Source of the DNA: Pontibacter sp. SGAir0037
GTDB lineage: Bacteria > Bacteroidota > Bacteroidia > Cytophagales > Hymenobacteraceae
Reading direction: 5' to 3'
NCBI RefSeq assembly: GCF_005491705.1
Contig: NZ_CP028092.1
Coordinates: forward strand, 992,001-1,056,000
DNA: 64,000 nt
Below the pieces are notes generated by a model. The model ran no database searches, had not been told where the DNA came from, and was given only the letters and a program-made list of their open reading frames with translations. Every line of letters begins with the position of its first letter. Within the stretch, counting starts at the first letter, position 1. Positions 50,083 through 53,833 of this stretch are shown here, piece by piece. A program made the position numbers and the translations under genes.

Positions 50083-50127
50083 AGGTAACAGCTTTGCTAT
50101 GGTGCGTTTATGCACTATAGGTTTTGT
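50083..50127 (-). other. attC-like site split by a group II intron
   Basis: Removing 50128-53833 joins GT to TGGGC and restores, on the minus strand, R'' GCCCAAC (RYYYAAC exactly), L'' CTATAGTGC, L' GCACCATAG and an R' GTTACCT (50089-50083). The inserted intron therefore lies inside the recombination core. The R'' box belongs to the leucine-rich gene on the right. Confidence 0.65.
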
Positions 50128-50603
50128 GTGCGCCCAGTATGGGCACCTGGTACTGAAGGTATCAAATTATTCCAGAGGGTGCAAGTCCCTTACAGGCGAG
50201 TTGGTGAAGCCTGTTAGCAAGCCGCAAGCTGGTTCGTCGTGAGGCGTGCAGTGAAGAAAGCGGGACTGCAAAATCCGGTACTGACGGACAGAAACTGCAT
50301 AAGAGGCAGGGAGTCGTGGGTAAGCAAGCACATCTTTGTAAAGCCCCTGACCAACAAGCGACTTTGTGTAGATGCAGCAGGAATCGGAGGAAGGAATGTG
50401 CTCTTACCTGGGGAGGTCTCCCTCTGTCGTGAACACAGGGAGAAGTCAGCAGAGGCCATAGTAGGTAGAGGTAACGAGCCGGGAAGCACCCGGAGGTCTC
50501 ACAAGCTACCGAAGGGCCGAACGTTAAGTTGCTCTTAATTCGGCAAGGAGGCTCAGCCAGCCTTGCCTTAAGCGGGGCAGAGATTACAGTAAAAGTAGTA
50601 AAG

Positions 50604-51917
50604 ATGATAGAGAAGGTACTCCACCGGGGCAACATGCTCAAGGCATACACGCACGTGCTGGCCAACAAAGGTTCGGCCGGTGTGGACGGTATGCCGGTAG
50701 AGAAGCTGGCTACGCACCTGAAACAAAACAGGGACGCCATCGCTACCGACATCTGCAACGGCAGGTACCTGCCTCCACCCATCCTAGGGGTAGCCATACC
50801 CAAGAGCAACGGTAAGAATCGCCTGCTGGGCATTCCCACCGTCACCGACCGCGTACTGCAACAGGCCGTTAATCAGGTGATAGCACCGCTCTTTGAGCTT
50901 GATTTTACCCAGCACAGCTACGGCTTCCGCCCCAACCGCAATGCCCACCAGGCCCTGCAGCAGGCACACAGGCACATCCACGAGGGCTATCAGCACATCG
51001 TGGACATCGACCTGCAGAACTTCTTCGATGAAGTGGATCATTGCCTGCTGCTGCAACTGCTTTACCGGAAGGTAAAATGCCCCCTCGCCCTACGCCTCAT
51101 CCGCAAATGGCTCCGGGCCCCCATCCTTATCAACGGGAGACTGGTCAAACGTCGGAAGGGCGTGCCGCAGGGAAGCCCGCTCTCACCGCTGCTCTCCAAT
51201 ATCATGCTCCACGAGCTGGATAAGGAACTGGAGCGGCAGGGGCTGCGCTACGTGCGCTATGCCGACGACTTCAGCGTCTACACCAAAAGTGAAGATGAAG
51301 CTCGAAAAGTAGGCAACGCTGTATTCCTCTTCCTGCGGAACAGGCTCAAGCTGCCTATCAACAGGGAGAAGAGCGGCATCAGGCGGCCAGTAGACTTTCA
51401 GATTCTGGGTCACGGATTCGTGCCCACCTATAAGAAGGGAGATAAGGGCAAATACCAGCTGGTAGTGGCAAAGAAGGGATGGGAAAGGTTAAAGCAAAAG
51501 CTAAAGAGCATCACCCGCAAAACAACGCCCTGCTCTTTTGAGCAGCGTGTCCGGGAACTGAAAGAGGCGCAGCGAGGCTGGGTCCACTACTTCCGTTTGG
51601 CAAGTATACAGGGCAAACTCAAAGAGGTCGACAGCTGGATACGAAACAGGCTCAGGCACTGCATCTGGCATGACTGGAAACGACCGGACCGGAAAAGGAA
51701 GAACCTGATTCGGCTGGGCGTTCCCAAGTGGCAGGCGTATGCCTGGAGCAGGACCAGGAAAGGAGGATGGGCAGTAGCTCAAAGTCCAATCCTGATAACG
51801 ACGGTAACGGTGAAACGGCTTGTCCGCAGGGGGTATGAATCAATGCTTGACTACTACAAGAAAGTAGCTCCACAGCTTAACGAACCGCTGTATGCGAGAA
51901 CCGCTTGTACAGTGGTG
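50604..51917 (+). CDS. Group II intron reverse transcriptase/maturase (outer)
   Basis: 438 residues from MIEKVLHRGNM (50604) to the codon GTG at 51915-51917. The frame now runs on for 39 extra codons into intron 2, stopping at 52037, because intron 2 separates the last codon from the original TGA (now 53788-53790). Reverse transcriptase motifs are present (GIPTVTDRVLQQ, GFRPNRNAHQAL, VDIDLQNFFDEV, GVPQGSPLSPLLSN, YADDFSVY) along with a GIIM maturase domain (WVHYFRLASIQ...). No HNH endonuclease is present. The 3' end of the gene is part of the domain V RNA. Confidence 0.88.
51882..51917 (+). ncRNA. Domain V of intron 1
   Basis: A 36-base hairpin GAACCGCTGTATGCG... to ...ACAGTGGTG, equivalent to the catalytic domain V, translated in part as NEPLYARTACTVV at the end of the maturase. 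Confidence 0.7.
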
Positions 51918-52460
51918 GTGTGTCACGAACGAAGGACGCTTTTAGTGTCCTTTGGTGCTGTGCAAATGATGAGGGCAGGCCCCTCGGAGCCGGTAGTCAG
52001 GTGCAGGCTCCAAACCGCCTTGTGCGGCTTTGCTTAAAAGGCATGGTCGTGAGCGACAAGGAAAAGTTACCGGAAAGGTAGCAGGTAGGTGTTAAGGAGA
52101 CGAACGCAAGTGAACTGCTGAAGAAGTGTCGTTAGCGAATAAGTGATGTCAAAACCGGGAGTCACCACTGTCCCGGGATAAGCATGAGGGCAACCTGGCT
52201 ACTGCTCATGCGGCATCCGGCATTAAGGCAGCGTGACCTTAACACAGGCATTTGCACGGAACGTGAGAACGTGTCGTCCTGATGAGAAGGGAGAAGCTCA
52301 AGTGGCAGACCCACAAGAGTAAGAGTACCGAGGCAGGGCACGCGGGCGGAACATCCCGTAGTAGCGTGGAAGTCCCTGTAATGGGGATGGAGCCAAGGGG
52401 ATGTATTATCCGGTTTTTATCACAAAGAAAACTGCAGGTAAGCCTGCAGGAGGTACTGAC

Positions 52461-53699
52461 ATGATTAAGACAAAACCATTTACCATCTCAAAGCACATCG
52501 TGCACCAGGCTTACCTGCGTGTAAAACAAAACGGAGGTAGCGCAGGTGTGGATGGGCTAAACCTCGAGGAGTTCGACCAGGACAGCAGAAATCACCTTTA
52601 CCGGTTATGGAACCGAATGAGCTCGGGAAGCTATATGCCCGCACCCGTCTTACTGGTGGAAATTCCCAAGAGCGGCGGGGGCACCCGTCCACTAGGAATA
52701 CCCACTGTTACGGATCGTATTGCCCAGATGGTAGTCACCATGACATTGGCACCAGTACTGGAGCCTGTGTTCCATGACGACTCCTATGGGTACAGGCCGG
52801 GCAAAAGCGCACTGGAAGCGGTGGGCAAAGCCAGGCAGCGGTGCTGGCGGCAGGACTGGGTTCTGGACCTGGACATCAAAGGCTTCTTCGACAGCATCCC
52901 GCACGAGTTGCTCCTAAAAGCAGTGCGCAGGCACACAGACTGCAAATGGGTGCTGCTCTACATCGAGCGGTGGCTCAAAACACCTGTGCAGCAAAGAAAC
53001 GGCATAACCACAGAAAGGACAAAGGGCACTCCGCAGGGAGCAGTCATCAGTCCGCTGCTGGCCAACCTGTTTCTGCACTACTGCATGGACGAGTGGCTGC
53101 GGATAAAGTATCCCGGTTGCCCGTTCGAGCGCTACGCAGACGACTGTGTGATACACTGCAGCACCGAGCAGCAGGCGATAGCGCTTAAAGAAGCACTGGC
53201 AGAAAGGCTAAAGGCATGTGGCTTGGAGATGCACCCGGAGAAGACCAAAATTGTTTACTGCAGGGACGAGGACCGACGCAAAAGTTACCCGAACATGTCT
53301 TTTGAATTTCTGGGCTATACATTCAGAAGCAGGAAGTCACGGAATAAGCAGGGTAAATATTTTATCGGATTCTTACCGGCAGTTGGCGATAAAGCCAGGA
53401 AGGCAATCCGGGAAAGGATAAGGGCATGGAAGTTGACCAGCAGAAGCGGCAGCAGCCTGACAAGGCTGGCCGAGGAAATCAACCCAGTTCTGAAAGGCTG
53501 GATTAACTACTACGGACACTTCTACAAATCGGAACTCTATGAGGTATTGAGATATTTGAACCTTGTACTCAAGAGCTGGGCCAGGCAGAAGTATAAGAAA
53601 CTGCAGGGCCATAAAATCAGAGCAAGCGATTGGCTGGGGAAGGTGGCTAAGGCCATTCCGAACCTGTTTGCGCACTGGCAGCTGGGAGTAAGGCCGTGA
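52461..53699 (+). CDS. Group II intron reverse transcriptase/maturase (inner)
   Basis: 412 residues from MIKTKPFTISK (52461). An AGGAGG Shine-Dalgarno sequence stands 6-7 bases before it, unusual in this phylum, and lies beside a small hairpin (CTGCAGG with CCTGCAG) that might hide it. Motifs: GIPTVTDRIAQM, SYGYRPGKSALEAV, LDLDIKGFFDSIP, GTPQGAVISPLLANL, YADDCVIH, then a GIIM domain (LKGWINYYGHF). No endonuclease domain. It is only distantly similar to the outer maturase, so the two introns come from different lineages. Confidence 0.9.
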   Translation: MIKTKPFTISKHIVHQAYLRVKQNGGSAGVDGLNLEEFDQDSRNHLYRLWNRMSSGSYMPAPVLLVEIPKSGGGTRPLGIPTVTDRIAQMVVTMTLAPVLEPVFHDDSYGYRPGKSALEAVGKARQRCWRQDWVLDLDIKGFFDSIPHELLLKAVRRHTDCKWVLLYIERWLKTPVQQRNGITTERTKGTPQGAVISPLLANLFLHYCMDEWLRIKYPGCPFERYADDCVIHCSTEQQAIALKEALAERLKACGLEMHPEKTKIVYCRDEDRRKSYPNMSFEFLGYTFRSRKSRNKQGKYFIGFLPAVGDKARKAIRERIRAWKLTSRSGSSLTRLAEEINPVLKGWINYYGHFYKSELYEVLRYLNLVLKSWARQKYKKLQGHKIRASDWLGKVAKAIPNLFAHWQLGVRP

Positions 53700-53713
53700 A
53701 GGTTGGATAATAG

Positions 53714-53747
53714 GAGCCGTGTAAGGCGAGAGTCTTACGCACGGTTC
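53714..53747 (+). ncRNA. Domain V of intron 2
   Basis: A 34-base hairpin from GAGCCGTGTAAGGCGAGAG to ACGGTTC, matching the bacterial domain V consensus, followed by domain VI (GGCGTAAGGG with CCCTTGCGCT) and the ACTCGAC end. Confidence 0.85.
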
Positions 53748-53790
53748 TGTGAGGGCGTAAGGGGGAGGTTCCCTTGCGCTACTCGACTGA

Positions 53791-53833
53791 GAGCCTCACC
53801 GTGAGTAATTTTGCTCACGGCGGGCTACTCGAT
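53791..53833 (+). ncRNA. Detached domain VI of intron 1
   Basis: GCCTCACCGTGAG pairs with CTCACGGCGGGC, followed by CTACTCGAT with the expected branch A. It lacks a domain V directly upstream; its domain V is 1.9 kb away on the other side of intron 2. Confidence 0.7.

Follow-up and report, generated by a model that had tools for sequence, protein, structure and literature searches.

A group II intron nested between domains V and VI of group IIC-like introns recurs in the genus Pontibacter

Results

Architecture of the locus

We analysed a stretch of 64,000 nt from Pontibacter sp. SGAir0037 (GCF_005491705.1, NZ_CP028092.1, positions 992,001-1,056,000, plus strand), here called the window; coordinates without a contig prefix are those of the window. 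Positions 50128-53833 are a twintron, and not a one-off. An outer group II intron (50128-51917 plus 53788-53833, plus strand) is interrupted by an inner one (51918-53787, plus strand), which lies in the one-base linker between the outer domains V (DV) and VI (DVI). The features are:

50124-50127, plus strand: 5' exon end (outer IBS1), TTGT; TGT/T in six of six copies, the 3' exon beginning with T 53834
50128-50603, plus strand: start of the outer intron with the domains preceding its ORF; Rfam matches, 5' end set where the flanks of six copies diverge
50604-51917, plus strand: outer maturase ORF, 438 codons, continuing through DV; stop TGA (53788-53790) after removal of the inner intron
51884-51916, plus strand: outer DV hairpin; fold of -17.0 kcal/mol, pair changes on both sides among 23 distinct DV-DVI sequences
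51909-51917, plus strand: inner IBS1, i.e. 3' strand of outer DV plus linker G; 9/9 complementary to 52163-52171
51918-53787, plus strand: inner group II intron; absent without scar in relatives, with a 1870/1870 identical copy in another outer intron
52155-52176, plus strand: inner EBS1 hairpin, from folding; EBS1 CACCACTGT at 52163-52171, the sole CACCAC of the inner intron
52401-53699, plus strand: inner maturase ORF, 432 aa; Pfam RVT_1 and GIIM, TIGR04416 425 bits
53712-53787, plus strand: inner domains V-VI; RF00029 62.2 bits and fold, putative branch A 53781
53788-53833, plus strand: outer DVI; consensus fold, putative bulged (branch) A 53827, base change GAG/CTC to GTG/CAC

The outer ends are fixed at 50128 and 53833 because the flanks of six identical copies diverge there: a search of the same genome (two contigs, 5.38 Mb) found the 3706-nt unit at six sites, and between pairs of these sites shared sequence extends for 3 to 10 bases on the upstream side and for 1 to 5 bases on the downstream side, with TGT before and T after the unit common to all. 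The inner ends follow from uninterrupted ORF-bearing relatives in 11 genomes, which pass directly and without gap from DV into DVI (from CAGTGGTG into TGAGAGG or TGTGAGG). Rfam matched the outer intron with RF02001 (50233-50403, 115.8 bits) and RF01998 (50404-50517, 44.8 bits), and the inner one with RF01999 and RF00029 (51971-52086 and 53712-53787). That is, a complete group II intron whose removal leaves no scar lies within another, as the sequence-only reading of this DNA had proposed. The joints it predicted, 51917/53788 and 50127/53834, are exactly those given by the six-copy flanks and the uninterrupted relatives. The main point beyond that reading is that the nesting is repeated and guided, and no single event.

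With the inner intron in place, the outer maturase frame reads on to 52037. Its removal puts TGA directly after GTG 51915-51917, the exact stop that had been proposed, and a stop right behind DV is kept in 10 of the 11 uninterrupted relatives (the one in genome G190 continues to codon 446). The linker between outer DV and DVI is a single G (51917), and the rejoined DVI has the standard ending that had been expected, CTACTCGAT with a bulged A, in the consensus fold. We compared 23 distinct DV-DVI sequences, three of them reconstructed by removing an inner intron. In several pairs both partners have changed, among them those at the foot of DVI beside the insertion point (GAG/CTC to GTG/CAC); some sequences have broken pairs in a few places, mostly at the DVI tip.

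The DVI of the window, shared by all six copies, is of a type otherwise found in ORF-less outer introns and unlike that of the 11 uninterrupted ORF-bearing relatives. This points to an exchange with an ORF-less outer intron before multiplication; homing alone would not explain it.

The outer maturase (TIGR04416 379 bits) matched the GsI-IIC reverse transcriptase with 342.8 bits over residues 1-418, versus 137.1 for LtrA and 118.8 for 6me0. Above the Pfam cut-off it has RVT_1 and GIIM only, as does the inner maturase. It is thus a class C maturase lacking an En domain, a class assigned by nearest solved relatives rather than by a class tree. The two maturases are 33% identical over 341 aa, which agrees with the distant relationship noted before. 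The inner intron may be of class D, or RmInt1-like (maturase of the RmInt1 class, IIB-like RNA). Among the matches listed, its maturase is 53.9% identical over 95% to that of a Sinorhizobium meliloti pSymB intron and 61.2% to that of a Neochlamydia plasmid intron. The pSymB intron is not RmInt1 itself, since its junction reads GATGAAA/GTGTG and the IBS1 of RmInt1 is given as GAUGAG at -7 to -2 (PMC3123198).

Filled and empty sites in the genus

A pattern of DV plus the inner 5' end was run on 50 genus genomes and located the intact inner 5' junction at the DV linker in five of them, at 11 places with six DV sequences in all. Seven of these places are in the SGAir0037 genome (G000) and one each in G167, G170, G171 and G183; a sixth genome, G160, holds the 3' part of the inner intron only. 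Since the inner intron recurs at the same linker in other genomes, chance is excluded. The empty state, in which the same DV is followed by DVI, was found at 34 places in 17 of the 50 genomes, some at contig ends. All seven DV sites found by the pattern in SGAir0037 are filled and none is empty; this genome has a further outer-like stretch (L018) in which no DV was recognisable. G167, G171 and G183 contain both filled and empty sites, so homing is not exhaustive outside SGAir0037. When 204 family genomes were searched with the 3706-nt unit, 39 matched at E <= 0.001, some over short stretches only.

In the seventh SGAir0037 copy (C1:2501624-2503581), the inner intron matches at 1870/1870 positions and the DVI (46 bases) is likewise identical; the host is an ORF-less outer intron that is 70% alike over the 5' part before DV. 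In a tree of 13 ORF-bearing outer introns, the filled one of G167 grouped with the empty one of G174 (support 86) and not with the filled one of G000; several other supports in this tree are low. The grouping is moderate evidence for separate gains, or losses, of the inner intron.

At two loci, L049 and L051 (G170 and G183), inner introns at the DV/DVI position have lost part or most of their maturase gene through internal deletions. G150 has eight empty DV places. Seven of them have one identical DV sequence, and two of these seven lie in tandem on a single contig of 3688 nt; apparently, then, the outer intron also multiplies on its own.

Outside the genus, the same junction was sought with an order-wide pattern built on Pontibacter DV, which other DV types would escape. 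Four of 390 order genomes matched at <=3 mismatches: G000 and G171 are genus members, and the 3-mismatch hits in G741 and G825 look unlike the twintron junction and were rejected.

Pairing of guide and target

The inner EBS1 CACCACTGT pairs over nine bases with ACAGTGGTG (51909-51917), and the loop of its hairpin holds CACCACTG of this guide. GTGGTG was present without mismatch at all 11 filled places, the pattern itself having required GTGGTG with <=2 mismatches. We extended the comparison to 23 loci of the inner-intron family, namely 20 of 43 relatives with a recognisable 5' end plus the window, L059 and L017; the 5' ends were picked by eye, guided by starts resembling GTGTG or GTGCG and by alignment with the inner intron. 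In 22 of these 23 loci the guide pairs with its own 5' exon at six of six positions (five of six in L072, a truncated copy), whereas 60 of 474 swapped guide-target pairs reached six, and none of 5000 permutations reached the observed mean match. In this scoring G-U pairs were counted and the position in the loop was free. The 23 loci comprise 14 distinct target hexamers, five loci having GTGGTG.

The 43 relatives of the inner intron lie largely in other mobile elements where the context is readable. Flanks were read by eye at 32 of the 43 loci, several of which gave no readable context. Relatives in Arenibacter and Salegentibacter (L069, L072, L085, L089) are located 349-403 nt behind the 5' end of an outer-like group II intron, those in Paenibacillus, Oceanobacillus and Sutcliffiella (L074, L083, L086, L092, L094, L095) after the RYADD codons of reverse transcriptase genes (the YADD readings), four others (L075, L079, L082, L084) in transposase-like genes and L088 in an HNH-like gene. 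When the phylum was searched with the inner maturase, matches at E <= 1e-120 came from 23 of 395 genomes, and a motif inspection of 25 loci from this search gave few possible 5' ends. At L089 3104-5400 (Salegentibacter), the 5' flank corresponds to the place inside the outer-like intron, the 3' flank is a DVI, and the outer DV is absent. It looks as if two inner copies had recombined with loss of the intervening stretch.

Target of the outer intron

The exons joined by removal of the outer intron read GTTGGGC, and the sequence-only reading had placed this intron inside an attC core. The target consensus of IIC-attC introns is TTGT/T (PMC7923331), and the outer intron resembles the introns described there in its TGT/T target (six of six sites) and its IIC-like maturase. 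As in group IIC introns, insertion is behind a hairpin with a short IBS1: five of the six sites have an upstream hairpin of at least 8 pairs, the sixth (L004) folds weakly, and z values at the six sites, each compared with 100 plain shuffles, lie between -1.6 and -4.9. A difference from IIC-attC introns as described in that source is that a limited scan turned up no canonical attC pair. This strict scan for attC hairpins (RYYYAAC...GTTRRRY) covered four of the six sites as joined flanks and gave none; L016 was cleared of the one-orientation copy only, which left the 295574 site interrupted, and the 1400058 site lay outside the scan. With a control stretch that also gave 0 and without a positive control, the scan is weak evidence against a canonical attC.

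Three of the six twintrons have a tyrosine recombinase resembling XerA or integron integrase nearby, at 0.7, 1.4 and 2.5 kb, and a fourth recombinase lies 11 kb from the last of these three:

G000 C1:2585544-2586356, C1:812329-813138 and C1:292288-293100: recombinases L130, L133 and L131, 196-204 bits to TIGR02249

The cut-off of TIGR02249 is 265 bits, and an integron integrase was rejected. Since this family gave matches below cut-off in all 14 control genomes, the resemblance says little and may be ordinary. Of the attC claim, the joined GTTGGGC and the TGT/T site stand, whereas the hairpin was not found by the strict scan at four of six sites and the recombinases fall below the integron-integrase cut-off; an attC target of the outer intron is only partly supported.

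Discussion

Site, recurrence, copy identity, guide-target pairing and the family-wide match of guide and target are established here at the level of sequence comparison. They are best explained by an inner mobile group II intron that homes into mobile elements and whose EBS1 is aimed at DV of Pontibacter group IIC-like introns; it would reverse-splice into the DV-DVI linker and splice first, the unit having spread to six sites. We hold this explanation, taken as a whole, to be very probable.

In mechanistic terms, complementarity of the inner EBS1 to the 3' strand of outer DV would direct reverse-splicing into the one-base linker. In RNA, EBS1 and the 5' half of outer DV would compete for the same nine bases, and outer DV would be unable to fold until the inner intron is gone, so that the inner intron would be spliced first. 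DV and DVI of the outer intron would then be joined, and its own splicing would restore the interrupted target site. The outer maturase, the frame of which runs through DV, would regain its usual stop once the inner intron is lost. A dependence of outer splicing on prior inner splicing, which had been expected from the window, is plausible because the very bases of the outer DV 3' strand are needed by the inner EBS1. Calculated energies alone do not decide the order: the guide duplex comes to -13.7 kcal/mol and is less stable than the DV hairpin at -17.0 kcal/mol. The unit may have reached its six sites as a whole, or the outer intron may have spread and then been homed into anew.

The first of these two routes competes with re-homing, not with guided insertion, and we consider it a serious contender that falls somewhat short of an even chance. 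Here, the twintron would move as one unit, the outer RNA reverse-splicing with the inner intron inside, and the distant DVI would be tolerated or release would be hydrolytic. Six copies identical over 3706 nt, a genome with no empty site, sites elsewhere that stay empty and one unusual DVI type common to all six copies would fit such movement. A point against our favoured explanation is that six filled identical copies are not simply expected from inner-first splicing, because a freed outer lariat would be empty. Against movement as one unit, the identical inner copy in an outer intron only 70% alike shows independent movement, or exchange, of the inner intron as well, and six recent re-homings would look alike.

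Alternative splicing, as in a zombie twintron, strikes us as quite unlikely. The outer 5' site would then use the inner DV-DVI and the inner 3' end (CTACTCGAC/T), or the whole unit would be removed in one step; the inner 3' end does resemble the outer one, and T follows both. Against this, the three filled outer introns that were joined retain intact pairing in both DV and DVI. This argument is a weak one, because empty outer introns (L026, L062) have the GTG/CAC variant of G167 too, and the variant may predate insertion. That a chance insertion simply killed the outer intron is highly improbable: the filled copies of G170, G183 and G160 are decayed, but six identical copies at six sites, insertion at the same place in several outer introns and the guide pairing already contradict a dead one-off. 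An assembly artefact is scarcely conceivable; although several copies in relatives end at contig ends, the SGAir0037 genome is in two contigs with six distinct flank pairs, and four further genomes show this junction as well.

Bacterial and archaeal twintrons are already known, as is homing into introns. In Thermosynechococcus elongatus, where TeI3 is nested in TeI4 and separate mobilisation was demonstrated for both introns (Mohr et al. 2010, PMC2882425), the account likewise describes a conserved site in other mobile group II introns and identical inner introns in diverged outers. Both traits are found in Pontibacter. There, by that account, the inner intron is ORF-less, of the same IIB family and located in domain IV between two start codons, whereas the Pontibacter inner intron lies between DV and DVI of a IIC-like intron and has its own distantly related maturase (432 aa, 33%) instead of being an ORF-less relative. 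The nested introns of Methanosarcina acetivorans (Dai and Zimmerly 2003, cited via PMC4424553) share repeated site-specific homing into group II introns; their target, going by the title, is intron ORFs, with nesting up to five deep, in contrast to a linker beside a catalytic domain. Nearest in position among known cases is the psbF twintron of Euglena gracilis (Copertino and Hallick 1991, cited via PMC8393795), in which the inner intron interrupts a group II DV; this is a plastid gene with the insertion inside DV, while the Pontibacter case is bacterial, recurrent, behind DV and guided. The Trichodesmium twintron (PMC4649490) is also bacterial, consists of two distantly related introns each with a maturase and was shown to splice sequentially, but as described its inner intron is in domain I, at one locus, in a protein gene. 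For the Porphyridium plastid mat1f (PMC4476101), one inner intron is described in two different outers and a third gene, the introns being IIB plastid introns in contrast to those studied here; the account consulted gives no location between DV and DVI for the inner one. In the open-licence literature searched we found no report of an insertion between DV and DVI, of its recurrence or of its guide, and no paper on Pontibacter with a group II intron.

A more far-reaching reading, which we regard as rather unlikely, is that the inner intron is specialised on the catalytic core of another ribozyme class. Its guide copies the DV 5' strand and might thereby invade many IIC-like introns of the genus and pair with and block outer DV in cis or trans; the inner intron would in that case act as a parasite governing how its host introns splice and spread.

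If our favoured explanation of guided homing is true, an intron guide targets what other introns conserve most, their catalytic part, and hosts would find this hard to change. Within the genus, naturally occurring pairs of empty and filled introns could serve to ask whether a ribozyme works with DV and DVI 1.9 kb apart. They would also bear on the order of splicing, and on whether a nested intron moves together with its host or invades it afresh.
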